From contig JAJEKV010000016.1 of assembly GCA_021234155.1 (NCBI GenBank), positions 4,115,896 to 4,179,895 on the forward strand: a stretch of DNA of 64,000 nucleotides, in the 5' to 3' direction. Made by a program: the position numbers and the translations under genes. The notes beneath the pieces are model-generated. The model had not been told where the DNA came from and made no database searches. It saw nothing but the letters and a program-made list of their open reading frames with translations. The DNA comes from Isoetes taiwanensis (taxonomy: Eukaryota; Streptophyta; Lycopodiopsida; Isoetales; Isoetaceae). Positions 2,431-49,619 of this stretch are shown piece by piece (positions within the stretch are counted from its first letter, which is position 1; each line of letters starts with the position of its first letter).

Positions 2431-2672
2431 ATGGGCGGGCATTTTGGAGCTCCCGAGCGCTGGTTGGGCGCAGGTGTTGGTGTCGCCTTGGGCTTCTGCA
2501 GGGATGGCGGAGCTCCTGGTGATGTGGCCGCTCATATGCTTTGTTTCTTTTCTGGTTTGGGTGGATAAGCTGGGGTCGCGGGCGTTGGCGGGGAGCGGAA
2601 GTGCATTGAAGAAGACAGAGGTAAGGTTCTTGGTTCTTGCTTTTGCTGCATCGCTTTTGCTTGTTATCTGCT

Positions 2673-3395
2673 ATGTCGATGAAGAGGGCAGCCAGAAAGG
2701 CTCAGAGTGGTCGCTCCTCTGGCCCTGCTTCTGTGAGCCATGTCTTGAATTCCAATTCCGGAGTGAGAGGCCAGGATTTGTTTGCTGGTCAGGATTGGAA
2801 CCTGATAGATGTGAGTGTGACTCTAGGTTTGTCTGGCCAGGATGTCCCTGTGAGTTTCTACGATGGGCTTGTTGGTTTTTGTGATAGGAGGTGTGTTGCT
2901 GGAGCTGTAGCTATGGAAAGGGGTGCTACTGTAGACCACCTGCACTGCCAGGCTGTCTTTAGAGGGCGTTTCAAAACCCCCAGGGCCATGAATGATGCCA
3001 TTAAGAAGGAATTTAACTGGTGTAGTAAGCCTCCTGGTGTTATCCTGGTCTGTAAAGCCTTGAAGAATACCCGCCTTCACTGTTTTGAAGGTATGGTTGG
3101 TTATTGTATGAAAGATTTTGGAAAGGTCCACTATGTCTGTCACCTTCATAATATCAGTGAGGATTGCATCGAGAAAGGTAAGGATTTATACCTGAGATGG
3201 GGAGCTGGTGACACCAAGAACTTAGTTGTGCTTGATAATAAGAATTTGCTTAATCGTGCTGCCCATTATGTCAACTATCATGGCAACCGTAAGATGACTG
3301 CTAGCCTCCTGTTTACATTGGCCAGAATGATCCGTTCTGGTAAGTTTACACTATCCAGCTTCTTGGATCATACCTTCCAATATCGCTCACATTAA
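2673..3395 (+). CDS. Rep-like HUH endonuclease domain (240 aa, then frameshift)
   Basis: Start chosen at the first ATG (MSMKRAARKAQSG). The track of conserved residues fits a Rep-type HUH endonuclease: motif II is DHLHCQAVF (His89 and His91 as the metal-binding HxH pair) and motif III is VGYCMKD (Tyr144 as the candidate nucleophile, Lys147 at Y+3). The H-to-Y distance of 53 residues is near that of rolling-circle Reps. A stretch IDVSVTLG at about residue 50 may be motif I. Such domains nick single-stranded DNA for rolling-circle-like replication in Rep viruses, plasmids and the eukaryotic HUH transposons called replitrons; which relative this is I cannot tell. Reading continues in another frame after 3370, so this copy is probably damaged. 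No helicase domain is visible in the window. Confidence 0.62.
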   Translation: MSMKRAARKAQSGRSSGPASVSHVLNSNSGVRGQDLFAGQDWNLIDVSVTLGLSGQDVPVSFYDGLVGFCDRRCVAGAVAMERGATVDHLHCQAVFRGRFKTPRAMNDAIKKEFNWCSKPPGVILVCKALKNTRLHCFEGMVGYCMKDFGKVHYVCHLHNISEDCIEKGKDLYLRWGAGDTKNLVVLDNKNLLNRAAHYVNYHGNRKMTASLLFTLARMIRSGKFTLSSFLDHTFQYRSH

Positions 3396-16981: not shown

Positions 16982-17426
16982 GAGATTTGAAATTTCTAGT
17001 TAAAAACTAAAATAGATAAAGGACCAAATATAGACAATAGGGTATGGAAAATTTAAGGATGCTCTATGCTTAAAAATCTGAAATGGCAATTGTAAATTAT
17101 TTATGCTCGATATTTATCGCATCAGCCAAGGCCACTGCGAATATTTTCTCTTCACCAACATGCTTATTGATTTGAATTGTATCTATTTTAGTATCAACAT
17201 ATGGTGATGTGTCGTGTGTAGTCAAAATTATATGAAAGACCCAAGGTTGAGTGATTTTCCATGAAGGGATAATATTATTTATGAATGTTCGGACTTGACA
17301 TCATAAGGTTAAATCTTCCCAATAATGGAATTATGGCTATAAAGCATGAAGTGGAAGCAGCAAAACTACCACAACATGACGATTATGCATTAATGGATAG
17401 CTTTTATAACCGTCCTATATAATGGT
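16982..17426. other. No gene seen
   Basis: AT-rich DNA up to the LTR border. The five bases before the LTR are ATGGT, the expected target duplication of that element. Confidence 0.5.
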
Positions 17427-18471
17427 TGTGACGCTCCCCGAACCTATACGATGCTCCCATCGTATAAATACGGGAAATCCCCTCTTCCATGGCGACTACT
17501 TCACCATAGAAAGGCCCTCCGTCTGACTTGGACCACTTGTGATGGGCAAGTGTCCGGGTGAAGGGCACAGAGGTGTCATTCGTCCCACGCCTTCTATGGG
17601 AATCCTATATAGCGGAAGCGTATACATGTTAGCACCTGGCAACAATATAATAAATAACATACCAACACGAAGGGTGGCCCATCATCATCAATACGAATAC
17701 AACAGAATACCAACATAATAAAGGAAATGCATCATAAATAAGGGCTCTACCCTGGCTCAGACTCATGGGAATCAACTGACAGTCAAGGCCTCCAGATAAC
17801 AACAGATAGAATCATAACAATGGCGTTGGCTGGCATAGAACAATGGCTAGGGTAGTCCACTCCATCCGCCCTCCTATGCACACTTTACAGATAGGCTGGA
17901 ACATGCTATGGCGTGATTGTAGCCTTCGGAGACGCAATTCCATGGAATCACCCTATGGAACTACTCCAGGTTACATCTCCTCGGTTCGATGAGGCAGGTC
18001 GTAGAGGCGTCCCCTTCCCGAGTATGACGGATCCCTGGGTGTGCTAGAGAACGCTGCGGCCCCCTCGCGACCCCCCTGCTCGCATCCACTTACTCCCCTA
18101 AATCTAAAGGCCGGCTCACCCGCCTGCTCGAGCCTGGCCCCAATCATATTGGCTCGACACTGCGACCCGTGGTGTCGACCCATACCCGCCCTCTCCGTGA
18201 CCTAGGCTATAAGCCTAGCACAGTTGTAGGGTCCTCAGAGTCGCTTAGGCAAGATCCCACCCCGATTCACCATCATACTCGTTATCTGGTGCTGAATCAC
18301 ATCATAGTATCCACAGCCAGGTGGGCTCTTGTGCACAGGCCGCATTTAATGGGATTTAAGTGGTTCTAGCTAGGAGCATCACTAAATCTAGATAGCCTTT
18401 AGGTCTCTACCCCCCTTAATCCAATAGAACACGGGACGAACAGAAAGAGAAAATAGAATCGGATACAATCA

Positions 18472-18536
<65 letters not shown>

Positions 18537-18979
18537 AAGTAGATCATAGAATAGAATCTAATCATCCATCTACTCAAACAAGGGTTAGAAGAATACAAGC
18601 TACGCTAAACTAACCGTATCATAGCTATCTCTCCTCGGTTCTCCATCCTTCCGGGCCGAATCCAAGGAGCAAGCAGCCTCCTCCACCAATTTCCCCCAAA
18701 TCGATTTGGGGCAAATTGGGGTGGAAGCCGCAATTTGGGTGTCCCAAGCTGGTAGGTCTGCCTTGCCCAATCAATTTGGGCCAGGTGGTAGTTCTAGATT
18801 AGTTATCCTTAACTAATTGATATTTAGGCCTTTTTAATATTAGGTTAAGCCCTAAATTCAAATTAGGGTTTAGGGTTAGGTTTCCCCCTTAATAATTAAT
18901 GATGTGCATTAATTATTCATAGTGACGACGTGTCATGTATTTATTCCCAAAAGGGCATATAAATACGTGGAACGTCACA
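17427..18979 (-). mobile_element. 3' LTR (copy B) of a 20-kb nested LTR retrotransposon
   Basis: 1553 bases, from TGTGACG to CGTCACA, a 7-base terminal inverted repeat of the TG...CA class. The bases just to its right, TTCTCCCCACC, read GGTGGGGAGAA on the minus strand: a polypurine tract, so this is the 3' LTR of a minus-strand element whose interior lies to the right. Matching start of the 5' LTR is at 37999. It shares the bulk of its sequence with copy A at 818. Confidence 0.8.
18474..18536. repeat. (CAT)n microsatellite
   Basis: About twenty uninterrupted CAT triplets inside the LTR; copy A has only a few at the same place (near 1070), so the tract has expanded in this copy. Confidence 0.95.
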
Positions 18980-19615: not shown

Positions 19616-19619
19616 AGTT

Positions 19620-19649
19620 GGGTGTAAATATGGTAATGCTACCCAAAAA
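19620..19649 (+). repeat. Left TIR of the 7-kb transposon
   Basis: Complementary to 26588-26617 with one mismatch in 30 (A/G at position 14). Followed by a run containing AGCACTTAGCACC and AGCACCTAAAGCAC. Confidence 0.95.
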
Positions 19650-19852
19650 AACGCGAAAGCACTTAGCACCTAAAGCACCTAGGTTGCCTTCATTCCAAAG
19701 AAAAAAAAAAACCACCTCAGTTCAGGCGCGCGAAACTTCCCCTCAATTTCCTGTTTCATTCCTTTTGCAAATCCTTTAGCAGAGTTTCAATTCCTCTCCC
19801 ACAAGACAATATAGATTGTTTATCCTAACTAATCGCCGTGGAATCAAGCAAC

Positions 19853-20743
19853 ATGGTAGAAGAAGCAAGAATAATGGAGGATTTTTGAGATGCACGGGTT
19901 GTCAAATGAGGGTCTGCAGCCCCATATGAAATACAATTGGCTAGCAACCCAAATCACGAAGGAACAATGGGAATCCGTTTGGCAGAAAGTTTTAACTCAA
20001 AGTCGAAGTCAAGAATCAAGGTTGCCTTTGTTCAACCACATTTGAGGAGAAAAATCGGAAAGCTTATTGAGTGTGTTTTACCTAGATGGTGTTTCTAATA
20101 ATGAAGTAAGAAAACAATTGGCTCTTGCCTTTGCATGGGAAAATTGCCCCAAGCACCTTTGATCCCGAAGGTCATCGATAAATTGGGCTTCATATGGGGC
20201 AATGATTATGATGTACAAGAAATGCAAAAATCGAAAAAAAATGTTCAAAAAGCAAAAGCTGAAATTGAATCAAAGCCCGCTATTTCTCGCCAAAGGTATT
20301 CCTAAGCCTACTCTTGATCGACTAATTTGAAGCATAACCTGCAGCTTAGTAAATGTAAAACTTAGGGAAGCTTGAGAATAAAAAAAGGCAGAGATGGGAA
20401 AGAAAATGCAAGATATTGTTGTTAGTCCGGGTCACATGAGAAATCCAATGATAAAATATTTAAAACCTTGTCCGAAAAAAAAAGAAGCAAGATGGAAAAA
20501 AAGCTAAAGTCTACTATTGCCGAGAAGAGAGCTATGGTTATTACAAAGGAAGTGGAGTTAGAAATCGTGGATTTAGAAAAGAAATTGATGTTTGAAGAAT
20601 ATGCATGTGAGTCCTTGGAGTCCGCTTTGCAAACCTGAGATCCCAATCTTCTTGTGAAGAAGGAGGCATTGGAAGCTGAATTAATTCAATTGGATGTTGA
20701 GATAAATGCCTAAAAGGAACATGCAAGCAACCTTCACCTCTCG
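19853..20743 (+). pseudogene. Broken N-terminal part of the RING/HAD gene
   Basis: Codons remain in shifting frames: first a segment with EGLQPHMKYNWLATQITKEQ and SVWQKVLTQS-like text (19860-20010), then Lys-rich text, then from 20462 a coiled coil (KSTIAEKRAMVITKEVELEI, later VKKEALEAELIQLDVEINA) interrupted by two in-frame stops at about 20637 and 20711. The last frame continues without break into the ORF at 20744, so this is the upstream half of that gene, disabled by point mutations. The first segment is not recognised. Confidence 0.55.
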
Positions 20744-21711
20744 ATGCAAATCACCAGCTCTCCTTTCTCGCATCAACACCATCAAAAGAAGGCTTCCGTG
20801 TTTTTGCAAAGTGCTTGTGGTTTAAGTTTTCATAATAACTACAAGATGTCTGTAGTTCTTGAATGTGAACATGAATATCATGTAATGTGTGCTGCATTGT
20901 TCAAAGAGGGCAGATGTTTGAAATGTGACTGTAACATTCCTGAAGACCTTTATATTGAACTTGGTATGAGTACTCCAACAGGAATTGAGCAGGTTGCTTC
21001 TTTTGATCCTAAAGTAGCTCAGAAAGCTCGGCCAGATTTGGGATCAAATACTCGGCCTGATGTTGAAGATGTTTTGCCTGATCAGTTGAAGTCCCCTTCT
21101 ACTAGCACAAAGAGAAGGTTGAGACATGCAAGGGACGAGCCAGAAATTCTCCAGGATCAGTCTAAGATGACAAGCCCAAGACAATTGAGAAGCAGTGGTA
21201 AAATTGGAGAGGATTCAGAGGCAGGTCTGAATACTAGTGAAGTTGAGTGTCAAATATTAGACACTCCAGCCAAGAAGAAACAAAAAAAGGAAATGCCAAA
21301 GAAGGATGAGTTAATTAGCAAAAAGAAAGGGAACTCAAGTAGCAAGAAGGTCACCGGGTTGGGACCAAAGAAAAAAGAAAAAAGGTTGAGAGAACTAACA
21401 AGAAAAAAGTTGTGGAAACAAGAAAGTATCCACTGAGAAGAAGAATGCACATTGATTTGAATGAAGAAGGGGAGGAAAACTTGCAGGTGAATGAAGAGGG
21501 TGTTGAAAAGGAAATTATGGAAAATATAATGACAACCCTTGATGATATTGCAAGTGTAGATCCCACTGAGGTAAAAACAGGTGAAGTACAGGAGCCTAAT
21601 ACTGCAACACAATCTGTACACAATGAAGGTATAAATACTGATTTTGCAGCAATTATGGATGCTCTTAGAGGAAATTCAAACATCTCTTTGAGAGCACTAA
21701 TTCATAAATGA
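20744..21711 (+). CDS. RING-H2 half-motif and basic region of the transposon HAD gene
   Basis: Residues 43-60 read CEHEYHVMCAALFKEGRC followed by LKC, which fits the second half of a RING-H2 finger: C-x-H-x2-H-x2-C-x8-C-x2-C. The first Cys pair is incomplete (only CGLSF upstream), so the finger is probably damaged. Then come Pro/Ser/Asp-rich text and a long Lys-rich stretch (KKKQKKEMPKK, KKKEKR) that would act as a nuclear localisation signal. A frame change near 21412 leads into an acidic segment to 21711. Small phase-1 exons with the repeated text STELQ / CTELQ follow (about 21869-21995) and link it to the HAD domain, so I treat all as one gene. Likely nuclear; function unknown. Confidence 0.5.
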
Positions 21712-21980
21712 TGTTTTAATGTTCAGGGTTTAAGAAAGTAGTCCCAAGTGATGAGGACATAGATGTTTCCAATTTAACTTCCAGGTTTATGACTTTTTAA
21801 TTTGAATTCAATATTTGTGGAACCATTGAAGTCAGATTCACTTAATTAATTTTATGACTATTAGGTCTACCGAGTTGCAAAGTACAAATGTAACTTCGAG
21901 GTTAATAATTCTACATTTCACTTGTACTCTTCTTTTGATTCATTGATTGAATTGTTCTTTTACTTAATAGGTGTACTGAA

Positions 21981-22758
21981 TTGCAAGCTGTACCTATGAA
22001 AAAGAAACTATTAATACTAGATCTGAATGGCGTGCTCGTTAAGACTTACAGAAGAACAAATCAATTAAGAGAAGACCTAAGAAGGCTGAATTCTCAGTTA
22101 TTGAGATCATCTACAACTAACAAAATGGTTGTCTTGAGGCCAGGTGTGCATAGGTTCCTGCAAGAAGCTTCCAGGTTGTTTGACTTAGCAATTTGGTCCT
22201 CCATGAACAACTTCAATGTTCATGAAGTTATTGATGTTCTATGTCCCATGAACAAAAAAGATTTTGTATTTGTTTGGGACCAAAAATATTGTGATGAGAT
22301 GCCTTTCCATTGGCCTCTAGAATCAAGCAAAACCCGTTTTCATGAAGCCACTCCATAAAGTGTATGAAGCTTTCCCACAGTATGGAAATAATGTTATTCT
22401 TGCAGATGATGAAGTGTACAAGACTTTTATGTCCCCACCATTTACCTCCATCATGGTGCCTACTTTCACATGTGATCCTGAAGATGAGATCCTAAATTCA
22501 TACTTGCCTCCAATACTCAGACAAGCTGCAGAGGTTCATGATGTTTCTGGTCTATTGAAGCACTATTCTAGGCCAGAAGCTTATACAAGAACATCCCTAG
22601 GTGTTCTCGATGCACTATTTCAGAAGAACATTGCTGATGAGCATAAACTATTGGTCAAAGCCTACTGCAAGGGTCAAATTCAATGGTTAGTAGATGATTT
22701 TGGGAGTGCTTTCAGTTCTGATCAGTTGGAGCAGCTGCAGAAATATTTGAAGTGTTGA
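21981..22758 (+). CDS. FCP1/NIF-like HAD phosphatase domain (frameshifted)
   Basis: HAD motifs are recognisable: motif I LLILDLNGVLVKT (nucleophile Asp present, the usual second Asp replaced by Asn, as in a plant-specific branch of FCP1-like proteins), RPGVHRFLQEASRLFDLAIW with motif II Ser in IWSSM, motif III Lys in FMKPLHKVYEAF, and motif IV DD in VILADDEVYKTF. FCP1-type enzymes dephosphorylate the RNA polymerase II C-terminal domain; the D-to-N change makes activity doubtful. One base is lost in an A run near 22335, splitting the domain into two ORFs. The tail (SGLLKHYSRPEAYTRTSLGV) resembles the tail of such plant proteins. A homologous domain sits at 42340-42990. Confidence 0.75.
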
Positions 22759-23311
22759 AGAATATTTACTGAAGAATTACTTGTTATGATTCTTAGTAGA
22801 ATTACTTATTGCCTCAATTTTGGACAAGAGGCATGTATACTTATATATTTTAACCTTATATTGCCAATACTATACGAGTGCAGATAATGCCTCAATTTTG
22901 TGATATCTGAATATAGTGTTTCTCTTTATATTGTTGTTTCTCTTTTAAATGTTTTCAGTCTCAATTTTCAGTCTCAATTTTGTGATATCTGAATATAGTG
23001 TTTCTCTTTATATTGTTGTTTCTCTTTTAAATGTTTTCAGTCTTAAACTGCTGTCACCTTCATTCAGTTACATTTTCAGTAGTAAAGTGTTGTTGTCTAG
23101 CTATTTCAATGTATTTTCACATTTAAACTGCAGATATGCCTCAATTTGGCAGATTGACACAGAAATGATTTTGTACAAATTACCTTATGTAGAAAATGTA
23201 GAAATGATTTTGTACAAATTACCTTCTATGATGCAGGTGGTAGACTACTCATGATCTGCTGGCAAGTTTCTTCTGCCATGAAATACAAGTCTGAGTCATC
23301 TTCATCTGCAA
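22759..23311. other. Gap between convergent transposon genes with 82-bp tandem repeat
   Basis: Two near-identical copies of an 82-base unit (starting TCAATTTTGTGATATCTG at about 22892 and 22974) and a shorter doubled phrase GAAATGATTTTGTACAAATT (23162, 23202). No ORF; probably the shared 3' region with the terminators of both genes. Confidence 0.7.
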
Positions 23312-23912
23312 TCATGTCAAATTTAGAAAGTCTAACGAGATGGCTGTATACACTGGCTTTTTCTGCAATAGTTGAAACCTTAGACAACCATCAATTTGTT
23401 TATAATAATGTCCTGACACAATAACTTCTTCAATCCCAAATACATTTCCCCATCCATCCTTATAATCTTCTAGCAAAGTATTCTTTGCTTCAGTGCATCT
23501 AAGTACATAAAAGTCTACCCCTTCTTCATTCCCTTCTTCAGCATTTACAGCAAAATTGTCACCCACTTCTATCATAGAACTAATTACATCATCTTCATCC
23601 TCTTCTTCTTCCTCAACATCATACTCGTCATCTTCTTGCAAATCATTGCTATCACCTGTATTCTTAGGATCCTTCAACCTCAACTCAATGGTTGCCCAAA
23701 AACCAATTCGATCATATTAATGCATTTGTCCCACTTAAATTGAATGCAGTAGTTGCAAAAGCATGACAAAGGTCTGTAAGCTACCTTCAAAGAGTTCTTC
23801 TTGTCACATGGTCTTATGCAGTGGAGCAATTGAGTTCCCTTTAAAGTATGGCATTCCAATCTTTCTGATCTATCTATCTTTGAAGACTCTACCTCCCAGA
23901 AATATCTGTAAC
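23312..23912 (-). CDS. Transposase C-terminal exons
   Basis: Exon about 23912-23791 encodes YFWEVESSKIDRSERLECHT and continues to LHCIRPCDKKNS, with acceptor TTACAG and donor AAG|GTAGCT. A second segment, 23683-23312, begins with a strongly acidic run (DEYDVEEEEEDEDD) and ends with a conserved-looking module (VDFYVLRCTEAKNTL ... DGWGNVFG ... VSGHYYKQ). These follow the order in full-length transposases of this type. Downstream limit of the last exon is taken at the stop near 23312. Confidence 0.6.
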
Positions 23913-24002
23913 AATATGAAAAGCAAGTGCTTTAAGTCTTTGGATGATTAGCGAAGTGCTGAAATGTCTGCAATAAAATTGTAAAACACTACAAAATTAT
24001 AC

Positions 24003-24819
24003 CTTTTGATGTCATGATCAGATGGATGATTTTCAAAGTGCCATTTAAGAAAAGCAACTACCTCCTTTGCACACTGTAGTTTCCATCCATTATACTTCAT
24101 TTGCTCTTGAGTTAGTATCCTCTTTATAACTGCTCCAGCACCATCATGCTCACCTTTCCCATGTGAGCTAGCAAAAAAATTCCATAGAAGATCCTTGCCC
24201 ATTCTCCCATAAAATCTACCAAGAAAATGGAATGGTCTCGAAGACTTGAATTGTGAAGAACATCCATCACTCCAAAACACATGTTTTTATATTCAACTCC
24301 AATACTTTGCAACCAATCAAGATGCATTTGCGCACAATGTTGGACATATTACGTGTCATGTGATTTGTCATCACTAATATAGAAATGAGTTTCCTTCACA
24401 ATACCTTGGAGACTTTGTTTCCTTTTCTCTTTGGCCAAGTTCTTGTTCTTCATGCATGAGTTCTCTTCCTCTTTCTTTTTTCTTTCTTCTTCTTCTTCCT
24501 TTTTCATCCTCCTGTAGGTTATATGCACTAGAATTGACACCTGGTCAAGATGCCAATGACAGATTGAGCTTCTTCTTTGGATCTTAAATCCATAATTTTC
24601 AGCAAAATCTATGACGTAAACAATGGTATCATCTTGAAGTGTTGCCAAGCATTTCCTGAATTCCTTGGCTTGCCAATGAGCTCTATAATTATGAGGTACA
24701 AAAGATTTCAAAGTCTTTCTTGCATGCTCATTAAATTCAAAAGGACTACCCAATTTATAGGCCAATTTTGTAACCTTTGGAGGTTTCTTAGATGATCTCC
24801 TCTTCCTTTGGACTTCTAC
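24003..24819 (-). CDS. Transposase catalytic core (RNase H-like)
   Basis: Acceptor CATGGCAG at 24820. Three acidic blocks in order: VIDFAENYGF with HWHLDQVSI behind it, then FISDD near KSHD, WSDGCSSQFK, and WNFF followed by GHGKGEHDGAGAVIKR-type text. D in DFAEN, D in WSDGC and an acidic residue in GEHDGAGA are candidate DDD/E catalytic positions. I know this arrangement from uncharacterised transposases of plants and cnidarians. A long Lys/Glu run (about 24440-24500) interrupts the core. Breaks: an in-frame TAA after SHDT (about 24350) and a 1-base frameshift before the WSDG block (about 24280). Confidence 0.75.
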
Positions 24820-24928
24820 CTGCCATGTTAAGGCCAATTTATCAGCTCCTGATATGGAAGTCATATGATTGAATCATATTTAATGAAGTCACTAAATGCA
24901 CTTTGCAATCTAATTTGAAAGTTATTAC

Positions 24929-25446
24929 CTTCTCAAATACTTTCCAATTCACATTGTAAGTCTTGCTCTTACTCCTCTCCTTAGGACATGTTGGCAGCCT
25001 GCAATACATTATAGCAAACATGGTAAATAGAAAGCAAAATTATAGGTTTGAAACAAAGGAAACATTGTACTCACTTCTTTAAACCACATTTTGTACAAGT
25101 CTCAAGATCGGACACGCATGCTTATGCCACTCATCACTCTCATCCTTTTGGCAGACCACCATTCTCCAATAATCACTACTTGATTTGATGGTGTTCTCCT
25201 TAGCCATGCAGATTAGACCTGGTCCACAAACCTTGCACTGACACTTACAATCCTTATGAACACCATAAGGATCTATCCTCATATTGTTGATGGCCTGCCT
25301 TGCAAATTCTAAGTGCAAATGGTATTGGCAACAACAAGTCTCCCTTTCTTGAAGTTTTCTTACATAGCTTGGCTTCAGTTTTTCAAAACCTGCTGGGACA
25401 TCTTTATATTAGGATGTTCCTTCTTGAAAGCAAGGTACAATTGTAC
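24929..25446 (-). CDS. Transposase Cys-rich exons
   Basis: Exon 25446-25075: VQLYLAFKKEHPNIKMS, then (after a 1-base deletion near 25385) a run with CCCQYHLHLEF, then CKCQCKVCGPGLICMAKE, CQKDESDEWHKHAC and CTKCGLKK, with donor GAA|GTGAGT. Exon 24998-24929: LPTCPKERSKSKTYNVNW, donor AAG|GTAATA. The many Cys and His pairs look like zinc-binding knuckles preceding the catalytic core. Confidence 0.6.
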
Positions 25447-25539
25447 CTGAACACAATTACAATAATAATTTTAGTTATTTTATAAAGTGAATGAAAGAAT
25501 TAGTGCACAACATTCCAAATTTTTGGTCGAAACTATTAC

Positions 25540-26344
25540 CTGTGTAATCTCTAGCAAATGAATATGATGATCAATTTTATCACCATTTTCAGGGCTTCCT
25601 CACATGCTTCTTATAAGGTGAGACTCTAGTATTTTCATCCCAAAACTTCCTCACCGTGGATATTTCTTCAGCTGAAAATGCGTCACTTCTTCTCTTCCTT
25701 CCAAATATTGACCAAGGGCCAGCTTCACACTCTGCAAATATACGTCTTCTAAATGCCATGGCAATAGTTTTTCTTGGAACAGATAGAACCCTTGAAATTG
25801 CAGATTGATTAATCCCTCCTATCGAAGATGCTGCCATTTGAAGGGTGCTCTTTCTTGCTTGGAGGACATCAGTTGTTCTTTGCATTTTTTGTGCCTGCAT
25901 TGTCTCTCTAACATTCACAATCATGGTTTTCATTATAGCAATATCCCTGGGATCTGGTACATCTGCTTGCAATGGCAAATGTTTGTTTTTTTTGAAAAGT
26001 CTTTGAAGAACTTTCCCTTTATCCAAATCCTCAGAAATGTTCCTGACAATGTGATTAAAAGAATCATCTAACTCTTTTGAGAGTTCCTGCAATCTTCTTT
26101 CACTAAGCCATTGTTTTCTCTTCCTCTCGTTTGGTGGAATATTTTCCTTTTCCCTTTCTTTCATTCTCTTTCTCGATTCTCTTTTCCTGTTGGCTTCAAA
26201 TTCCAGATAAATTCTCCTCTTCTGATCATCAAGGCTTTCAGAATTGGCCATAAAATGGAGGTGCAATGGAGAACTGGAATTGGGATTGGGATCGGGATTG
26301 GGATTGGGATTAGAATTGAGAATTGCCAGTGAATTTTCAGCCAT
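25540..26344 (-). CDS. Transposase N-terminal exon
   Basis: Start at the first ATG, 26344 (MAENSLAIL). A short Asn-Pro dipeptide run (NPNPNPDPNP) is followed by a very basic region (KRRIYLEF ... RKRESRKRMKEREKEN), a helical stretch, and a helix-turn-helix-like segment (NQSAISRVLSVPRKTIAMAF) that likely binds the transposon ends. After RKP a 1-2 base loss creates a stop; the next frame continues to a donor CAG|GTAATAG at 25540. Promoter must lie in the 270 bases between the ATG and the right TIR. Confidence 0.65.
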
Positions 26345-26587
26345 GAACGGAGCTTGGGAAGAATGACAATCCAAGAAAGAAAACTTTCCTCAAGAATCCC
26401 GCCAACTTGAGATCCCGCCAAACATGAGAATTGCTCTGGCAATTCGCGCGGGGACATCCATGTCATCGATCCCTCCCCAACCGGAACATGCATACTATTT
26501 CTGGAGTAACAACCCCCGAGGTCGTTGAACGAAAATTCATCGAGTAAAAAGCACCTCAAGCACCTAAAGCACTTGTCCGGACGGTGC

Positions 26588-26617
26588 TTTTTGGGTAGCA
26601 TTATCATATTTACACCC
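26588..26617 (-). repeat. Right TIR of the 7-kb transposon
   Basis: Inverted copy of 19620-19649; preceded inside by AAGCACCTCAAGCACC and AGCACTTGTCCGGACGGTGC, the latter a small palindrome. Confidence 0.95.
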
Positions 26618-26902
26618 AGTTAGAAATCATTGTTTATTCACACATATGTAGCTAATTATATATTATACACAGGCATAGACATAAACAACCTCTATTTGTT
26701 CTTTTAACATAATATATATTTATAATTCTCTCATTGTTTACTACAATTGGTTCTAATCATATTAACGTCTGTCTATATGTCGAGTATACTCTCCCTTCAC
26801 TTTACAGTTTGTTTTATTACAGTCTGCCCTAATTTAATTTTGTATCGAAATTTTGTTTTCCTATTTTGTTACAGTTTTAACAATTCATATATTGTTATCC
26901 TA

Positions 26903-35093: not shown

Positions 35094-36291
35094 TTACCGC
35101 AGAGTTCCCATTTGGAGCCATCTCCGTTCTTTGGCATGAGCCTTTGCTCGTTCCTCATCTTGGAAGCTTACACCTTTCTTCCACTCATCAGCAGCTTTAG
35201 AGGTCTCTGGTATATCTTCCAGTTTTGGACCTTCAATAGCATGCATTTGTGCACCCCTTTGAGGTTTAGGTGGCTCAACCTTTGTGATCCCCCCTTCTCC
35301 AAACGGACAATCCCTTAGGTAATCCTTTCCCCCGCATCTATAACAACCTCCCTTTGGTTCCCTCGTTTCCTTCCGCGGTCTACCTTGGCTTCCCTCTTCT
35401 CGCTTCGTTTCGGAACCATTACCGTTACCGTTATTCTTCCTCTTCTTGAGGCTTCTGGAGGATTCCTTGCTTCCATTCTTCTCTTTGCTACTCTTTTTGT
35501 CCTCTTGATCTGAAGTGTCCTCATCCCAAAAATCAAATTTCCTAGTTTTGGGATCTATTTTCCGTTCCACTGCAGATGCTAGTTTTATGGCTTCATCTAA
35601 ATCTTTGGGGTGAAATATTTCCATCTCCGCATAAATATCGTCCCTACATCCGCTGACATATTTTCTCAGAAGCTCTTTCCCATCCAGATTCCTTATTAGT
35701 GCCGCTAAATGAGTGAATTTGGAAGTGTAGGACTGACTACTCTCAGTTTCCCCCTGTTTCAGACGATCCCATTCCCTACGTAGCTCACTGTGATAGTTAG
35801 AAGGTAAATAATGTGCTTCAAATGCCGTTTTGAAACTTTCCCAATTATTGATTCTGGGATCACATTCTCGTCTGCCTTGCCACCATGCTTGGGCTTGATC
35901 TTTTAGATAAGTGTCCATGGCTTGCAGTCTTTCCACATCTGTTGCCTCGCACACGTTCAAAGAACTTTTCCCACTGACTGATGAAACTGACAACCTTGAC
36001 AGGCTTTGTCTTTCCCCCTTTAAAAGACGGCATGTCTGCTTTCTCTAACCACTTTCTCAGCTTAGGTGGCGGTGGAGGAGTTACTGGTGGAGGACCATTA
36101 GGCAGAGGGGGTTGCGAAGATTGCAGATAAATATTTGGAAGGAAGCGATACAGAATAGACAGCAATTCCACTTGCCTATCATACTCTTGCTGACTGCTAG
36201 GCATAGGCAATGCTAACTGGGATGCAATGTAGCTGGCATTAGACAAGGCTTGCTGATATTGTGCTTCAGTAACATTGAAGCATTGGGCCAT
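35094..36291 (-). CDS. Ty3/gypsy-type Gag (one frameshift)
   Basis: Start ATG at 36291 (MAQCFNVTEAQYQQALSN). N-terminal helical region, proline linker (PPPVTPPPPPKLRKW), then the retrotransposon gag core: WEKFFE and, in the next frame, DQAQAWWQGR, FKTAFEAHYLP and LKQGETESSQSYTSKF. After a basic segment there is one zinc knuckle, CYRCGGKDYLRDC, whose usual His is replaced by an odd residue (C-x2-C-x4-Y-x4-C), so zinc binding may be impaired. The two ORFs overlap at 35860-35993; one base change of frame lies between WEKFFE and the DVERLQAMD text. No protease or polymerase follows. Gag would form the particle that packages the element RNA. Confidence 0.85.
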
Positions 36292-37997: not shown

Positions 37998-37998
37998 T

Positions 37999-38098
37999 TG
38001 TGACGCTCCCCGAACCTATACGATGCTCCCATCGTATAAATATGGGAAATCCCCTCTTCCATGGCGACTACTTCACCATAAAAAGGCCCTCCGTCTGG
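37999..38098 (-). mobile_element. Truncated 5' LTR (copy C)
   Basis: TGTGACGCTCCCCGAACC and onward is almost identical to the first 95 bases of LTR B at 17427, then similarity stops after CCTCCGTCTG and the palindrome array of the next element begins. The remaining 1.45 kb of this LTR does not reappear in the window. Confidence 0.8.
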
Positions 38099-38112
38099 AG
38101 AGAGTTCGGCAA

Positions 38113-38224
38113 CGGTATAAATTTATACCGTCTGAGCACGAGCGGTATAAATTTATACCGTTGCAGAGCCCTCTCGGTATAAATTTATACCGTGGGACCT
38201 TAGACTCGGTATAAATTTATACCA
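38113..38224. promoter_or_regulatory. Phased array of four 18-bp palindromes
   Basis: CGGTATAAATTTATACCG at 38113, 38143 and 38175, and with one change at 38207. Start spacing is 30, 32 and 32 bases, three helical turns, so dimers bound here would face the same side. The array ends about 130 bases before a TATA box. Confidence 0.85.
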
Positions 38225-38327
38225 TAGACCCAAGACAAAACAAAAACAAGAAGATTAAAAGAGATGTGGAACTAGAATGGTACGGATTAGAGACTTACGT
38301 GGCCATGACCGTATGGATTCGCTTATA

Positions 38328-38395
38328 GCTGTTCGAGAGAGCAAACTGGGGCCAGTATATAAAGCACAGCGCAAGCGGCTTCGACTCCGAACAGC
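38328..38395 (+). promoter_or_regulatory. Promoter of the DUF7869-type locus
   Basis: TATATAAA at 38356-38363, bracketed by the inverted repeat GCTGTTCG (38328-38335) and CGAACAGC (38388-38395). It lies between the upstream palindromes and the downstream set in the leader. Confidence 0.6.
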
Positions 38396-38501
38396 GTATA
38401 TAGAAAATAGACCGGCCGCCGCCGGGCTTTAGTACCTCTGCTCTGTGCCTTTCCGTATAGCGTTTCTCCATAACGTCTCCTATACGAATTTCTGTAAGTT
38501 T

Positions 38502-38624
38502 TCATATAAATTTATACCGTTTCTGTTTAACCTTACAGCTTCTCTGTATAAATTTATACCATCTCTGTATAAATTTATACCGTTCGCTTACGCTCCTGCT
38601 TCTGTGTCGTATAAATTTATACCG
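38502..38624. promoter_or_regulatory. Second set of TATAAATTTATACC palindromes in the leader
   Basis: Four more copies of TATAAATTTATACC at about 38505, 38547, 38567 and 38610, with starts 42, 20 and 43 bases apart. They are in the untranslated leader of the following gene. Confidence 0.8.
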
Positions 38625-38666
38625 TCTAACGCTACTTCCTGTCCTGCTCGCAGGCTCCCTCGTCCG

Positions 38667-39269
38667 ATGATTTCCACACCTGCCCCAATGTCACTAGGTA
38701 GTAGCCACGAAACTTCTGTCTCCGATATTCAAAGCCCCAGCCCTGACGTTCGTACACATCGGCTTCCACCACCAGTTCAGTTTACTCCACCACAGCCTGC
38801 TCCTGAACGTCATTTGCCCCCACCAATGCGTTTTACTCCACCACAACCCATAGAACAACGAAACGTTCCTCCACCCATTCATTTCACTCCAGCAAGGGAG
38901 GACGAGCTCAGACTCCCTCCTCCAGTTCGTTTTAGTCCTTCTCCCATAGTTCAACGTAGACAGCCTCCCCGGAGGCAAATCACACCAACTCCATCCATCT
39001 CGCTACTTGATACTACACTAAGTGGGAGCAGTCAGCGCCACGCAACTCCTGTATTCTATGACACTTCAGGAGCTGCTCAATTACGTCACCAACCTCAACT
39101 ACTTTTTCCCAGAGAGAGGGAAAGCAGCTCCCTCCAAGACCTGCCCACACCAAACCTCTCAGCATCTATTAGTACACCATCTGTTGCTCCCGTGTCAGAT
39201 GAAGAAACTCCTCATGTTGATCTCTCAGCCACAAGACTCTATGTTCGAATTCAAAGCTCCTGCGAGTGA
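38667..39269 (+). CDS. Proline-rich N-terminal segment of the DUF7869-type protein
   Basis: Start at the first ATG after the palindromes (MISTPAPMSLGSS). Contains a near-tandem repeat, LPPPVQFTPPQP, LPPPMRFTPPQP, VPPPIHFTPA, LPPPVRFSPSP, roughly every 18 residues. Probably a disordered extension that links to the transposase in a different frame, by frameshift or intron, around 39215. Confidence 0.5.
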   Translation: MISTPAPMSLGSSHETSVSDIQSPSPDVRTHRLPPPVQFTPPQPAPERHLPPPMRFTPPQPIEQRNVPPPIHFTPAREDELRLPPPVRFSPSPIVQRRQPPRRQITPTPSISLLDTTLSGSSQRHATPVFYDTSGAAQLRHQPQLLFPRERESSSLQDLPTPNLSASISTPSVAPVSDEETPHVDLSATRLYVRIQSSCE

Positions 39270-39903
39270 AAACCTTAAGCGAAACTTACACAAGAAAGCA
39301 TGTACATCGCAAAGAAGAAAGAAACTTATGGACGAGGCTCACTTGAGGGCAACACATACAAAGCACTGTTGTTTTCAACGTTGTTTGCTTAAGATTGGAC
39401 TAAAGGAATTGAGGTTGATTCGTGATAATTACAGTTCGATGAATCTGCTAGACCAAAGGGGCTACTTAGCCTTCAATATTAGGCCAGATTATGGTAAAAA
39501 GTTTACTTACACTACTGGTGGCTACACCGTCTGTCAAACAGCCTTTAAATTGATTCATGCTTTAGGCAGCAGACGACTTCACCGCCTGAAGAAAAGGCTT
39601 GACAAGAATCCCGGCATTAATGACTACTGCCATTCAGGAAGTATATCCAGAATTCATGCCCTTCAATGTGTTTCCTGGATGGAAGGTTTCTTTAAGGAGT
39701 CATACGAGAAACTCCCTAATAGCCCTATGTACCACTTGAGTGACAACTTCACGAAACGTGAAGTCTACAATAATTATAAGGATATGTGTGTTGAGGCTGG
39801 AGAATGCCATGTATGCTACTCTTACTTCACTGTGCTCTGGAAAAAAGGGTTTTCCCGCGTGTCTATTCCTAGAAAGCACCGGATGTCTGTTTACATGCTC
39901 TGA
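39217..39903 (+). CDS. DUF7869-type transposase, N-terminal region
   Basis: Open from about SQPQDSMFEFKAPA. Features seen in full-length members: HCCFQRCLLKIGL, LIRDNY, TGGYTVCQTAFKLIHALGSR, and CVEAGECHVCYSYFTVLW, then FSRVSIPRKHR. Many Cys/His suggest zinc binding. Near 39895 the frame closes, and the continuation (CSELKAQRQNARTLHTKSKL) is in another frame up to a TAG at about 39975, followed by intron 39989-40021 (GTAAGT...TTTCAG). Confidence 0.65.
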   Translation: MISQPQDSMFEFKAPASENLKRNLHKKACTSQRRKKLMDEAHLRATHTKHCCFQRCLLKIGLKELRLIRDNYSSMNLLDQRGYLAFNIRPDYGKKFTYTTGGYTVCQTAFKLIHALGSRRLHRLKKRLDKNPGINDYCHSGSISRIHALQCVSWMEGFFKESYEKLPNSPMYHLSDNFTKREVYNNYKDMCVEAGECHVCYSYFTVLWKKGFSRVSIPRKHRMSVYML

Positions 39904-40021
39904 ATTAAAAGCTCAGAGACAAAATGCAAGGACACTTCACACTAAAAGTAAGCTTTCACAACGTGCTCTTGCCTAGTTCTACTCAATGGTAAGTTTTTGT
40001 CCTGAACATATTTTCATTTCA

Positions 40022-40699
40022 GATGCAGTGAAAGAGAAACTGAACAAGCACAGAGAACAACAATCTTTGGAAAGGAGAAAATTGACAAAACACAGGAAGA
40101 AAGCACTGGAACAACCACACAACTACATATCGGTTGTTATTGATGGAATGGACCAGAAGAAGACCACCCTACCACATTTTGTCAATGTGCCTAAGGATAC
40201 TCCTGAAGAAGATTTCATACACCTTCATGTTGTTGGTGCTATGGTATTTAATGGGAAACTATCTTGCAAGGCATTTTTGAACTATCCAAACGTTCATGCT
40301 GATCCAAATCTCACTATCACAATATTGAATAAGATTCTTTCAAGTCTAGAACATATACCACCGGTCCTATATCTTCAGCTAGACAACACGACAAGAGAAA
40401 ATAAGAATCAAGCATTGTTTGCTTACTGTGCCATGCTAGTTGAGAAACAAATCTTCAAGAAGGTGAAGATTGGTTTCCTGCTTGTTGGTCATACACACGA
40501 TCAAATTGATCAGATATTCAGTAGGTTTTCTAAACGTCTTGCTCGAAAAAAAGCTCTCAGCCTGCCAGCAATGATTGAGGTTATCCAAGATTCCAACAAT
40601 CCTCGTCCAGACATCGAGTTATTGGAAGAAAATTATGATTTCATAAGGAATGGGTTTTTCGGAGAGATCAATTGGGTCGTTGTGCAATTGAGCCCTTGA
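40022..40699 (+). CDS. DUF7869-type transposase, catalytic core
   Basis: After the TTTCAG acceptor: basic helix (RKLTKHRKKALEQ), then three acidic blocks typical of the family: SVVIDGMDQKKTTLPHF, LYLQLDNTTRENKNQAL and LLVGHTHDQIDQIFSRFSK. The D of IDGMDQ, the D of LDN and the D of DQID are candidate RNase H-like catalytic residues, matching in order the D/D/E blocks of the transposase at 24003-24819. All three are intact here. The frame is lost at about 40665. Confidence 0.78.
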   Translation, partial: DAVKEKLNKHREQQSLERRKLTKHRKKALEQPHNYISVVIDGMDQKKTTLPHFVNVPKDTPEEDFIHLHVVGAMVFNGKLSCKAFLNYPNVHADPNLTITILNKILSSLEHIPPVLYLQLDNTTRENKNQALFAYCAMLVEKQIFKKVKIGFLLVGHTHDQIDQIFSRFSKRLARKKALSLPAMIEVIQDSNNPRPDIELLEENYDFIRNGFFGEINWVVVQLSP

Positions 40700-41345
40700 G
40701 AAATATTATATTTCAGCATCAGATCAAATTCTCTCTTGTAGATAGCAAGGCCATCTTACAAGGAAAGAAATATGCCACATCCTTGCAGTGGCAGCCAGCA
40801 GCTGGTATTCAATTCATTCGCACCATCCTCGATACTACTTCTATGCTCTCTGCAGAGCAAACTCTTAAAAGCTTAAAGGAATCACAAAGAGTAAAAAGGA
40901 GGGAAGGCCATTTGACTCAAACATATCATTGGATTATATTGAGACAAGTATTCAGTCATGCTCTAACCATTTTGGGGAGGCAAATGCTTTATGGTGGCCT
41001 CAATTTTTTTCTCGGCAACGTGACATGTTACAGGTTTTATTACAAGGTCGAAGACCAGTTACATTCAACTGGTCATCTATGCAAACTCTTTCTATGCAAG
41101 TTGAGAATCAAGAAGAATATATACAGATAATGGCTAGCTCAGATAAAGATGACAGAGTCATGTACACTGACCCTAGACGCACGGCACAACAAGTTGCTCG
41201 GGTATCTGGTTCAGTCTCAGAGATTCAGAAAAGAATGCTCGTAGCTGTCCCAGCTGATAATGATGAAACTGGGAAGCCATTCTGGCTAGCTAAAGTACTG
41301 GAGATAACAAGAGAGGATGGAATTCCCACTCAATTAAAAGTGCGA
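40700..41345 (+). pseudogene. DUF7869-type transposase, broken C-terminal region
   Basis: Two frames alternate. The second (from about 40929) reads WWPQFFSRQRD, then SSDKDDRVMYTDPRRTAQQV and a module MLVAVPADNDETGKPFWLAKVLEI, which resembles the small beta-barrel at the end of such transposases. A stop at 41346 replaces the expected continuation, so the copy is dead. Confidence 0.6.
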
Positions 41346-41518
41346 TGAGAACAAATACTGCCAATGCTTTCAGTGGGAGTTATACTTTGGAGATGGTAAA
41401 AACAGGAGTGGGAAAGAGAGCAAAGTCCAAACTAAACACTGTTGTCATAGATCTAGCTGAAGTAAAGGTTCTTGCATATGACTTTGTTCTGACTGCCTAG
41501 TGGCGTGACGTTAAAATA

Positions 41519-41697
<179 letters not shown>

Positions 41698-41749
41698 ACT
41701 GCTGCTAATAAGTTACGTGCGGTCACTCAAACTTTAATAAGGTCGGCAT

Positions 41750-41941
41750 GTGGATTATAGAAAGGTGGCCAAAAAAGATGATGAAGAAGACTCACTTGTA
41801 GACAGTGAGGAAGAAGATCGTTCGAGTACATCCAGTTTTGAGAGTGAAGATGAGGATGAAGGCTCTACTGATCAGGGACTAAATGAGTCTGAGGATGACA
41901 TGCATCCTGATATTGCTGCAAAATGTAAGTTTGTCCGATGA
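41750..41941 (+). CDS. Acidic tail segment
   Basis: Short open frame, strongly acidic (KKDDEEDSLVDSEEEDRSS, then FESEDEDEGS). A similar acidic run occurs near the end of the other transposase (23600-23680). Probably the C-terminal exon of the DUF7869-type gene. Confidence 0.4.
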   Translation: MDYRKVAKKDDEEDSLVDSEEEDRSSTSSFESEDEDEGSTDQGLNESEDDMHPDIAAKCKFVR

Positions 41942-42339
41942 CTCGAACATGTAAAGAACAAAAAGCGCAGGTGATGAGGGTTTGTCAAAATGTCCTATAT
42001 TTTTGACAATTTTGTTCATAATTTTTTAAAATTTTCACAAGCTTTGAATATATCACTTCTTTGTCACTCTACTACCCTTGATGGTTTTTTTATTGCCCCT
42101 TTTTTGCTACACTTCATATAAGTAGCTATTTTTTGTTCCAAATTAGGAGGATGAAAATAGCTATTAAATATTTTTGCATACAAGCTATGTTCAATCAACC
42201 CCTCAAAAAGGGTACCTAAATTAGCTAAATGGTCATACTTGTCACGAACCAAACCTTCAAAATGGACTTTTTTTAGGGAATTTTAGGGAATCTTTTAAAG
42301 ATTCCTTCTGAAGTGCATTTGGAGCAAATAAGTGCGTTT

Positions 42340-42990
42340 CAATTTAAACTTTGTTAAACGCCATCGAACAACAAAAAACTAATCCTCTTCAACTTGAATG
42401 GAGTTCTTCTGAAGACTTTCTCCAAAACAGAGCACCATGTACACTTCCTTTTCCAGCTGGGTTTCTAGAGACAAATACCAAATGGGTTTATCCAAGACCT
42501 GGTGTACAAAAATTGTTAACCCTTCTGAAGAACAGAGCATGTATTGGTATATGGTCCTCCATGATCAGATCTAACATACTCGATATTATATCAGTTGTTC
42601 CTGAGCTAAAGGACTTTGCCTTTCACGTCATTCTAGATCAAGGGAATTGTGGAGTTGCTCGTCGGCCACAACATAGCGCAAATGATATCTTCATCAAAGG
42701 CATACATGAAGCCTTGGAGGTGATAGAAGGATTTCAGGAAGACCATATATGTCTTATAGATGATGACCCCATCATAGTGTTACTTGAATGTAGAGAACAA
42801 CATAGATCCTCCATCATGGCACCCAAAGGATGAAGATGAAGAGCATTGGGTGTCAGCTGAAACACTTGAGATGTTTGATTCCCTTATATCAGCCCCCACA
42901 GTGCCTGCTTTCTTAAGAAGTAGACCAGATTTGCAAGGAAAAGCATATGCTCCAGATGTCGATCTGGTTGTAAAAAACTATTATCAATAG
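42340..42990 (+). pseudogene. FCP1/NIF-like HAD domain, second copy (dead)
   Basis: Same family as 21981-22758. Motif I reads FNLNGVLLKTF, so the nucleophile Asp is Asn here; RPGVQKLLTLL and IWSSM give motif II, FIKGIHEALE the motif III Lys, and CLIDDDPI motif IV. The C-terminal part (SAPTVPAFLRSRPDLQGKAY) takes the place of the tail in the other copy. At least two frame changes (about 42400 and 42790). It follows the DUF7869-type transposase on the same strand. Confidence 0.7.
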
Positions 42991-47406: not shown

Positions 47407-49381
47407 GAGGCCGATTCCATCCTCCACTACGATTTGCCTTATTGCCCACTTGCATTTGTTTATGAAAACCAAAGCGAAATATTGGTGCGGCTAGTAGGGT
47501 ATGGTGGTGTTGTGTTGCGAGATGCAAAGCAAGGTGAAATGTGGTGGTCCGAGTAGGGTATGGGCGCCATGTGTTGAGCATATACCCTGGGTCTTGAGGT
47601 ACCGTCTTGTGTTGTCGAGTCTGAAATCGTGGCCAAGTGTCAGTAGGGTATGGTCTCCCCCTGTTGCGCATATACCTGGGATTTTGAGGTAGCGTCTCGT
47701 GTAGTCGAGCTTACAATCGTGCCAAGTGTCGTGCATGCACTGAGAGACTAATAGTCGAGCCGTGCAATCGTGGCCCTGCAATTCTCGTCAAGTGTCGTGC
47801 ATGCACCCACACACAATGGTATCTCTCGTGCAGTCCAGGGTGTTTCCTTCTGCACTCGCCAGCTGTACACTATGAGAATTTTAACACTAGCAAATTAGCA
47901 ACAGAGTTTTAACACTAGGACAGTGGCCTTGCTTGCATAGTACATTTTACAGTAATACAAGGAGCTGAAGTTAGCTCCGGCGAACTTTTTGGCTTCTTGC
48001 CGCCTGGCCTTCTCTGCTAATGGCGCTCCAAGATCTTTCGCCGAATCATGCCGCTAGCCTTTTATTTGTAAGATCAAACCTTTCTTTTGCGAATGCAGGT
48101 CTTGTTTCCCTTCTAGTTGTTATCCTTTGTAGAATCGCCGATTTTAGTTGTGTATAAACTCTGTTTTTGGGAGAATCCCAGAACAGCTGATTTTACAATC
48201 AGATTTCGGATTATGATGCCGGTTTCTTTGTTTTCGTGAAGGAAAAGGTAACTCCTCTTTCCACCAGCTGCTGCTGCTTAATCCTTCGTTTTTTCTTTAG
48301 ATGTGGTGGCTGTCTGCTGATAGCTTATCTCAGTTTTTGTTCTTTCTTTTTAAGAACCAAGAACCTGGGGTCTGCAATAGGCCGAGGTCTGTAGTAGCCA
48401 AAATCTGTTCATTTGTCTCACTTTCATTTTGATTTGTTGCTTAGCGTTTTTGTGCTTTCCGTTCACCTTTGTTGATCTTTTGTTCATGTTTATGTAATTT
48501 TGGCAGATCTTTTGTTGTTAATCCTACTGTTTTTATGAGCAGATCTTTTGCCAATGGAATGCTCAGTTTTTGCTAATGGAACACTGCTGTTTCTAATGGG
48601 ATTTTCATTTGCATGCTTTTTTATTCGTCCTTTCAATGCCTACAACCTTGAAATGCTGAGCTGTTGCCTGGGCCCTTGCTTTCAACGGGATTAAGGGCCG
48701 CTTCACACTCGCAGTTAAAGTGCCATTAGGTTAAAAAATTAACTTAACTGTGTTTCACATTGGCTTCTGTTAAAAAATTCCGTTGTTAAGATTATGGGGT
48801 TAAAAAATAATGGCACAATTAAGGTAACGGTGCAAGATAACTGGGGTTCACACTGTATTCCGTTAGGTTAGGTTAAATTTTAACGGAGGACTTAACGGGC
48901 CATAATTTTTCCCTTCAAATTTAAGGGCAGGGGGGCCATCCCTTAAGCTCCATTTGCAATTCAATTTTTAACTTAACGGCGTGATAGTCAGTGTGAAGCA
49001 ATATTTAACTGTTTCCGTTATGTTAACTCTTAACATAACAGCGTGACAATCAGTGTGAAATAATATTTAACACTGTTGCAAATGAAACGGGAGTGTTGCA
49101 GAACTCCCGTTTCAAAGATTCCCTTCAAAAAAACACCATGCTCTAAAAAATGACCATTTTTAGAGTAACTGATGAGTTTCTAGAGGTTTAGTTTTTTTTT
49201 TCTGCATTTTGACACCCCATTAAGTGTCAAGTTTGTATTTTTGAAATGCCACAACTCAAAATTGGCAGAATTTAGACATGTCATGTACAATCCTTCAAAA
49301 ACATCAAAATAGAGATATAAAAATAATAAATATTTCAACAATAATTTTCAGTACATCATTTCTGGCTAAACAAGAACGAAA

Positions 49382-49605
49382 ATGTATTCCATAATACAGT
49401 TTACCTTCCAGGGAAAGGAGAAATGTATTCCCGAATACACTTCGCACACAACAGTAAAACCAAAACGTATTCCGGAATACAATTTGGTTTCACGAAAACC
49501 AAAAGTGTATTCCGGAATACACTTTGGTTTATGTCTTAAGGACAAAGTGTATTCCGGAATACACTTTGCTCTTCGGGAAAACCAAAAGTGTATTCCGGAA
49601 TACAC
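49382..49605. repeat. Left phased palindrome array (six copies)
   Basis: Core GTGTATTCCGGAATACAC or near variants centred at about 49390, 49431, 49473, 49513, 49555 and 49596: a 40-42 base period, four helical turns. Spacers share AAAACCAAAA. It lies about 700 bases inside the left end. Confidence 0.9.
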
Positions 49606-49619
49606 ATTTGTTTCCACAA

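Follow-up and report, generated by a model that had tools for sequence, protein, structure and literature searches.

The Sola DNA transposons are, by description, among the closest known systems to an element that we analysed in the quillwort Isoetes taiwanensis, which lies at positions 19620-26617 of a 64,000-nucleotide stretch of contig JAJEKV010000016.1 (positions 4,115,896 to 4,179,895, forward strand; this whole stretch is hereafter the window). This element carries, between terminal inverted repeats (TIRs), a transposase-like gene and a gene for a protein with a RING-like finger, a coiled-coil-like region and a HAD domain of the NIF family (hereafter the HAD gene). According to the available excerpts of the published accounts, Sola elements measure 2-9 kb, have 4-bp target-site duplications (TSDs) and TIRs of 11-1124 bp, are known from reports in mosses (PMC10741241) and have a reported DDD transposase (PMC9033089). 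The quillwort element shares the 4-bp TSD (in 8/9 insertions) and the TIRs (30 bp), and its size (6,998 bp) falls in the Sola range; this likeness in described features makes it a candidate Sola element. It differs in its second gene, as the same excerpts mention no NIF/HAD partner in Sola.

Other described elements resemble it in having a second protein, again as far as the excerpts of their descriptions go. PIF/Harbinger elements are two-gene DNA transposons in which the second protein is conserved (PMC10741241), but their TSD is of 3 bp instead of 4 bp and the second protein is Myb-like and not of the RING/HAD type. In KolobokP a DDD/E transposase is joined by a His-Me finger endonuclease and the lineage is defined by this unexpected second enzyme (PMC9587614), but the elements are found in animals and the enzyme is a nuclease. 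The TET/JBP-carrying transposons of fungi (KDZ, hAT, EnSpm and others) combine a transposase with an element-encoded enzyme that crosses lineages; this enzyme is however a dioxygenase, patchily distributed over many transposase superfamilies, and is thought to act against host silencing (PMC12730594). Among cellular proteins, the phosphatases UBLCP1, CTDNEP1/dullard and FCP1 belong to the same Pfam family (PF03031) but have a DxD motif, whereas the quillwort HAD has DxN, falls below the NCBIfam subfamily cut-offs, is linked to a RING and coiled coil and is borne by a transposon. Among the open-licence papers listed in literature searches, none dealt with a transposon-borne NIF/HAD gene or with its motif, and the novelty of the element is provisional because the search was limited to such papers.

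The best explanation for the window is that it holds one decayed copy of a large and old clade of two-gene cut-and-paste DNA transposons. From the sequence comparisons given below, we consider it probable (roughly 0.6) that a single clade of transposons encodes the HAD protein as an obligate accessory protein of its elements, and that it is not a captured passenger. Our confidence in the anatomy and the selection is high, and the ubiquitin and phosphate steps that might follow from them stand at well under even odds. The partner very likely does something that the elements need to spread, since all six deep lineages opened keep it, all 67 pairs listed have it in convergent orientation, and the pairs sampled show purifying selection on it.

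The element measures 6,998 bp, has AGTT immediately outside both ends, and its 30-bp TIRs (19620-19649 and 26588-26617) are complementary at 29/30 positions. With up to 3 mismatches allowed, the 25-bp TIR core occurs in the window only at the two element ends (0/100 shuffles). Inside the TIRs lie two convergent genes, the multi-exon transposase-like gene on the minus strand and the HAD gene on the plus strand. A first-pass annotation, made from the letters of the sequence, had described an intact-bordered 7-kb transposon with 30-base TIRs differing by one mismatch and an AGTT duplication; the borders are as it described, while the genes are not intact. As judged by eye, both have in-frame stops, with several frame shifts in the transposase and about two in the HAD gene, so that the window copy itself cannot be autonomous. 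The features of the element are:

19616..19619: left TSD, AGTT, read directly and identical to 26618-26621 (4-bp TSDs occur also in other copies)
19620..19649, plus strand: left TIR, beginning GGGTGTAAAT, complementary to the right TIR and with the core restricted to the two ends
19650..20470, plus strand: 5' part of the HAD gene, heavily decayed; the piece LDGVSNNEVRKQLALAFAWENC is similar to the N-terminal part of this gene in the divergent copy L076 (translations, by eye)
20471..20713, plus strand: coiled-coil-like region with in-frame stops (translation), matched wholly or in part in 20/20 fetched copies
20714..21436, plus strand: RING-H2-like finger lacking the first zinc ligand, and basic linker (translation); L076 has all eight ligands
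21343..21711, plus strand: linker, continued in the next frame (translation)
21727..21784, plus strand: small exon with AG/GT borders, predicted by splice joining
21865..21900, plus strand: small exon with AG/GT borders, predicted in the same way
21971..22358, plus strand: last exon, first part, with the HAD/NIF domain and motif I LDLNGVL (Pfam NIF)
22321..22758, plus strand: last exon, second part past a frame change, with the remainder of the HAD and the C-terminus (profile match; a single frame in other copies)
23312..23716, minus strand: acidic C-terminal region of the transposase (translation)
23680..23931, minus strand: exon downstream of the catalytic core (translation)
23948..24286, minus strand: catalytic core with WSDGC and GKGEHDG, holding the second and third candidate Asp (conserved in a 12-row alignment)
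24349..24873, minus strand: catalytic core with DFAENY, holding the first candidate Asp; the frame ends early in this copy (translation and 12-row alignment)
25079..25408, minus strand: cysteine-rich region (translation)
25589..26344, minus strand: basic N-terminal region (translation)
26588..26617, minus strand: right TIR, complementary to the left TIR and with the core restricted to the two ends
26618..26621: right TSD, AGTT, read directly

The left 600 bases of the element match at least 40 places in the genome, window included (46 matches, six of them second pieces; best 40 of 593 candidates), and of the remaining 39 the 20 that matched best were examined over 9 kb each. The HAD and RING regions are present as DNA in 19/20 of these copies, the exception (L020) being a left-end fragment. 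The first-pass annotation had taken the HAD gene for a genuine partner and named two findings that would speak against this: that copies with the same ends usually lack it, or that it is a host gene inserted in a single copy. Neither was found. The transposase core was recognized in 17/20 copies; in the 9 kb examined, L011 and L024 have the HAD but not the core, and L020 lacks both. Moreover, two good TIRs were found within the stretch in 10/20 copies, L015 being left out of this count as its right-end match has five mismatches. Copies L010/L012 and L013/L025 share flanks and were each counted as one insertion; with the window included, 8/9 independent insertions with both TIRs have an exact 4-bp TSD, whose sequence varies between them, which answers to the full-length copies with 4-base duplications that had been proposed as a check. 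The identical flanks of these two couples of copies stand at different places of the assembly and correspond to duplicated regions or to unmerged haplotypes.

The pairing of the two genes was then assessed over the genome from the best 150 of 5,447 candidate matches to the HAD domain (45-98% identical, many of them open-framed), which merged into 146 loci, and from 138 matches to the transposase core (the best 136 of 9,161 candidates), giving 136 loci. Among the loci listed, 67/146 HADs, counting that of the window, have a transposase at 10 kb or less, and all 67 pairs are convergent, with a gap of 1.3-1.8 kb between the genes in 54 of them. By simple arithmetic (146 x 136 x 20 kb / 1.66 Gb) about 0.24 pairs are expected by chance. 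As a control, the transposase DUF7869 (150 listed of 9,928 candidates) has such a HAD or transposase at 10 kb or less in 0/150 cases, and at 20 kb or less in 2/150, one of these being the window.

None of the 19 listed transposases of the 50-60% identity band was paired in this way. Six of these 19 (53-55% identical) were opened over 4.5 kb downstream each, and a HAD match was found at the expected convergent position in 6/6. These matches are 31-55% identical over the aligned pieces, that of L073 extending over only 66 residues.

Two divergent copies are informative on the ends and on the finger. L075 (HAD 49% and transposase 62% identical) is bounded by TIRs whose ends are of the same type: its left end is GGGTGTAAAT and its right end has one mismatch in the first ten bases. 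Its TSD was read as CCAT; since CCCATG flanks both ends, the duplication may be longer and the TIRs shorter. L076 (transposase 53% identical) has a complete C-x2-C ... C-x-H-x2-H-x2-C ... C-x2-C finger, with 8/8 ligands by pattern and by eye, whereas the window finger has 7/8. Also read by eye in L076 were an extended coiled-coil-like region and, between lysines, a GRP core that we take to be similar to AT-hooks. The coiled coil, half RING-H2 finger and basic region that had been noticed on the plus strand were all read again in the window, and the half finger looks like a decayed form of the full RING-H2 pattern seen in L076. Among the 19 RING-bearing copies fetched, the finger is full-length and without a stop in eight, and in two of these a ligand is changed.

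Selection was estimated with Nei-Gojobori distances on 20 of the 67 pairs, which were picked for largely open frames and so form a sample biased to constraint; stop-free stretches were available for the HAD in 20/20 and for the transposase in 13/20. Comparisons with a synonymous distance (dS) of 2 or more were left out (94/190 for the HAD and 43/190 for the transposase), and the pairs compared are not mutually independent. At a HAD dS of 1-2, the median ratio of nonsynonymous to synonymous distance (dN/dS) is 0.25 for the HAD (n=42) and 0.16 for the transposase (n=31), and at 0.3-1 it is 0.25 (n=22) and 0.22 (n=22), respectively. In the pairs sampled, purifying selection acts on both genes. 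Below a HAD dS of 0.3 the medians rise to 0.45 (n=29) and 0.47 (n=30), as expected for copies that decay after insertion. The dN matrices of the two genes correlate (Mantel r 0.89, p 0.0001) and their trees have 10/17 splits in common, with five in common among the eight and seven strong ones. The expectation that the HAD gene evolves in step with the transposase is supported, with dN/dS well below 1 for both between lineages. An earlier comparison of codon-position bias between two HADs of the window (58/64/31% identical) was set aside, as its blocks had been chosen by protein similarity, and was replaced by these distances.

Several observations weigh against an obligate two-gene element. 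Among the matches listed, 79/146 HAD and 69/136 transposase loci are unpaired (six of these transposases are the ones opened above). In half of the fetched copies (10/20) the 9 kb examined show no right TIR of good quality, L019 has both TIRs and no TSD, and the 9.4 kb of L076 yielded no convincing pair of TIRs. No RING pattern was found in the three plus frames of L075, so the RING may not be universal, and even in L076 the finger remains below the Pfam cut-off (zf-RING_2, E 0.014). In some close pairs dN/dS exceeds 1, with maxima of 1.8 for the HAD and 1.64 for the transposase. In addition, L029 differs from L030-L033 by a dS of only 0.05-0.07 in the transposase but of 0.68-0.76 in the HAD.

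This last comparison is also of interest in itself, as the HAD of a subfamily appears to have been replaced beside a nearly identical transposase (L029 against L030-L033, with L049-L053). Five left-end matches resemble the window over the outer 60 bp (89-97%), and the remainder matches only from base 207 on (79-81%). The simplest reading of these sequences would be that the HAD half was replaced through recombination between subfamilies.

The first-pass annotation had called the plus-strand domain an FCP1-like HAD. The HAD assignment holds and the FCP1 one is too narrow. The open reading frame (ORF) 21951-22358 matches Pfam NIF above the cut-off (E 1.1e-13) and ORF 22321-22758 below it (E 0.0047); the joined domain reaches 71.2 bits against a gathering cut-off of 21.8 (E 1e-19), and the divergent copies L076 and L075 score 53.5 and 50.3 bits. 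The predicted splicing of the last three exons is supported by the frame, as exons 21727-21784, 21865-21900 and 21971 onward, all bordered by AG/GT, join in one frame with 0 stops, the other two frames having 17 and 12. The subfamily models give 29.8 bits for FCP1 (TIGR02250, cut-off 135.25), 41.7 for dullard/SCP-like proteins (TIGR02251, cut-off 139.15) and 30.5 for the UBLCP1-type HAD-IIID1 (TIGR02245, cut-off 192.25), and among solved chains UBLCP1 scores best (E 1.2e-09). The catalytic NIF phosphatases have DxDx as motif I; here it is D-[LV]-N-G-V-L in 16/16 sampled copies that cover it (4/20 stop short) and DIN in L076, and in the profile alignment the Asn falls on the second Asp of CTDNEP1 DLDET. 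By its sequence, the domain is aptly labelled a NIF-family HAD with a DxN motif. Some plant HAD proteins likewise carry an LNG motif, and an origin of the HAD gene from such a plant gene is plausible. A search for relatives of the domain in prokaryote genomes confirmed none.

The Asn in place of the acid/base Asp, in the 16 sampled copies and in L076, would agree with a domain that only binds phosphate, as a pseudo-enzyme, the RING/coiled-coil part doing the work, for instance in transposase turnover. We find this rather unlikely, although it survives best among the alternatives. Nearly all rows of the alignment keep the Asp that comes first in motif I, the IWSS Ser, the KPL Lys and the two Asp of motif IV (L029 lacks one Asp and L034 does not reach motif I), and a mere scaffold would not need these residues; moreover, the plus frames of L075 showed no RING, the part that would do the work.

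For the transposase, the DFAEN, WSDGC and GEHDGAGA blocks were found on the minus strand as had been described, the gene holding VIDFAENY, FWSDGCSSQFKSS and SSHGKGEHDGAGA. In 12 aligned copies (L054 numbering) the candidate DDD triad comprises an invariant D82 and nearly invariant D196 and D237. No Pfam family was matched above cut-off, and a structure model from the 12-row alignment was too poor for fold evidence or a fold search (predicted local distance difference test, pLDDT, 41.6), so that it is the motifs that suggest the label of RNase H-like. No relatives of two transposase pieces, or of DUF7869, were confirmed in a search of viral contigs.

A mechanism may be proposed in which the transposase acts on the TIRs by cutting and joining, leaving the 4-bp duplications that are seen in the copies, and the HAD protein works alongside it on the element DNA. 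The coiled coil and the basic, AT-hook-like region might join the HAD protein to the transpososome or to chromatin, the RING could recruit a ubiquitin-conjugating enzyme, and the altered HAD site could bind or slowly hydrolyse a phospho-substrate on the transposase, chromatin or RNA polymerase II (Pol II). In its fullest form, that mobility depends on a RING/coiled-coil/DxN-HAD protein which acts as a ubiquitin-ligase-like pseudophosphatase, is a standing part of transposition and is a module swapped between subfamilies, we hold this proposal tentatively and somewhat short of an even chance.

The HAD protein could instead be encoded by the element and selected, and yet counter host silencing (chromatin, Pol II or the small-RNA machinery) and not serve transposition proper. 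Purifying selection and retention also fit this, and the solved NIF-family relatives include a phosphatase of the Pol II carboxy-terminal domain as well as UBLCP1. Moreover, the exchange of the cargo between subfamilies resembles the lineage-to-lineage transmission of TET/JBP in the excerpts available (PMC12730594). According to the same excerpts, however, TET is patchy in fungi among the families of one lineage (Plavaka), whereas here 0/6 opened deep lineages are without the HAD. We favour a needed transposition cofactor over an optional anti-silencing cargo because none of the opened lineages has lost the HAD; the presence of the fungal TET/JBP cargo in some families and its absence in others likewise suggests that a cofactor is the likelier of the two. 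A role against silencing is thus unlikely in our judgement, and a little more so than the pseudo-enzyme.

NIF domains occur in cellular phosphatases too, and the gene might have been a host gene captured once by one copy or subfamily as a functionless passenger; this is very improbable, being contradicted by its presence in 19/20 copies, in 67/67 convergent listed pairs and in 6/6 deep lineages, and by a dN/dS of about 0.25. Least credible of all is that the HADs are an amplified host gene family beside which the transposon prefers to insert: the 79/146 listed HADs with no listed transposase within 10 kb would suit it, but the transposases listed are the best 136 of 9,161 candidates, order and orientation are fixed with a gap of 1.3-1.8 kb in 54/67 listed pairs, and the HAD lies inside TIRs whose TSD sequences differ between sites.

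Elsewhere in the window, a degenerate NIF/HAD relic with an LNGVL motif was found at 42373-42990, 27-36% identical to the sampled transposon HADs; no further remains of a DFAENY transposase were found in the window outside 19620-26617. The relic stands about 16 bp past the end of an unrelated DNA element (38098-42357) that encodes a DUF7869 transposase (E 3.6e-49), has palindromic GGTATAAATTTATACC repeats near its left end and adjoins a truncated fragment like a long terminal repeat (LTR) at 38097. The similarity of this element to four other genomic copies stops at 42355-42357, no inverted partner of its left end was detected above background, and a single-sequence structure model of DUF7869 was too poor for a fold search (pLDDT 48.7). 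The neighbourhood of relic and element raised the idea of a HAD cargo common to two transposon superfamilies, which was rejected: 0/6 other DUF7869 copies have a HAD match 0.7-3.5 kb downstream (in four the likeness to the window stops shortly before the relic, and L077 and L082 show no similarity there), and the 0/150 listed DUF7869 loci within 10 kb of such a HAD also speak against it.

The window contains in addition the following features:

2625-3392: ORF with a Replitron HUH endonuclease domain (E 2.8e-20)
805-2155, 17426-18788 and 37998-38097: three copies of one LTR-like sequence, the first and the third preceded by GCTCTGATAC, which resembles a minus-strand primer-binding site
35097-36044, minus strand: Ty3/gypsy-like gag ORF
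49379-49612 and 51873-52025: arrays of palindromes like AAAGTGTATTCCGGAATACACTTT, possibly subterminal repeats of another element

The second genes of DNA transposons reveal what a transposase alone cannot do, and an old, conserved partner that combines a HAD phosphatase fold with a RING finger would make an uncommon kind of helper. Such genes are probably mis-annotated as host phosphatases. The many open-frame HAD copies in the quillwort genome make the helper idea testable and, if it is true, transposition in plants would be linked to phosphorylation or ubiquitin signalling.

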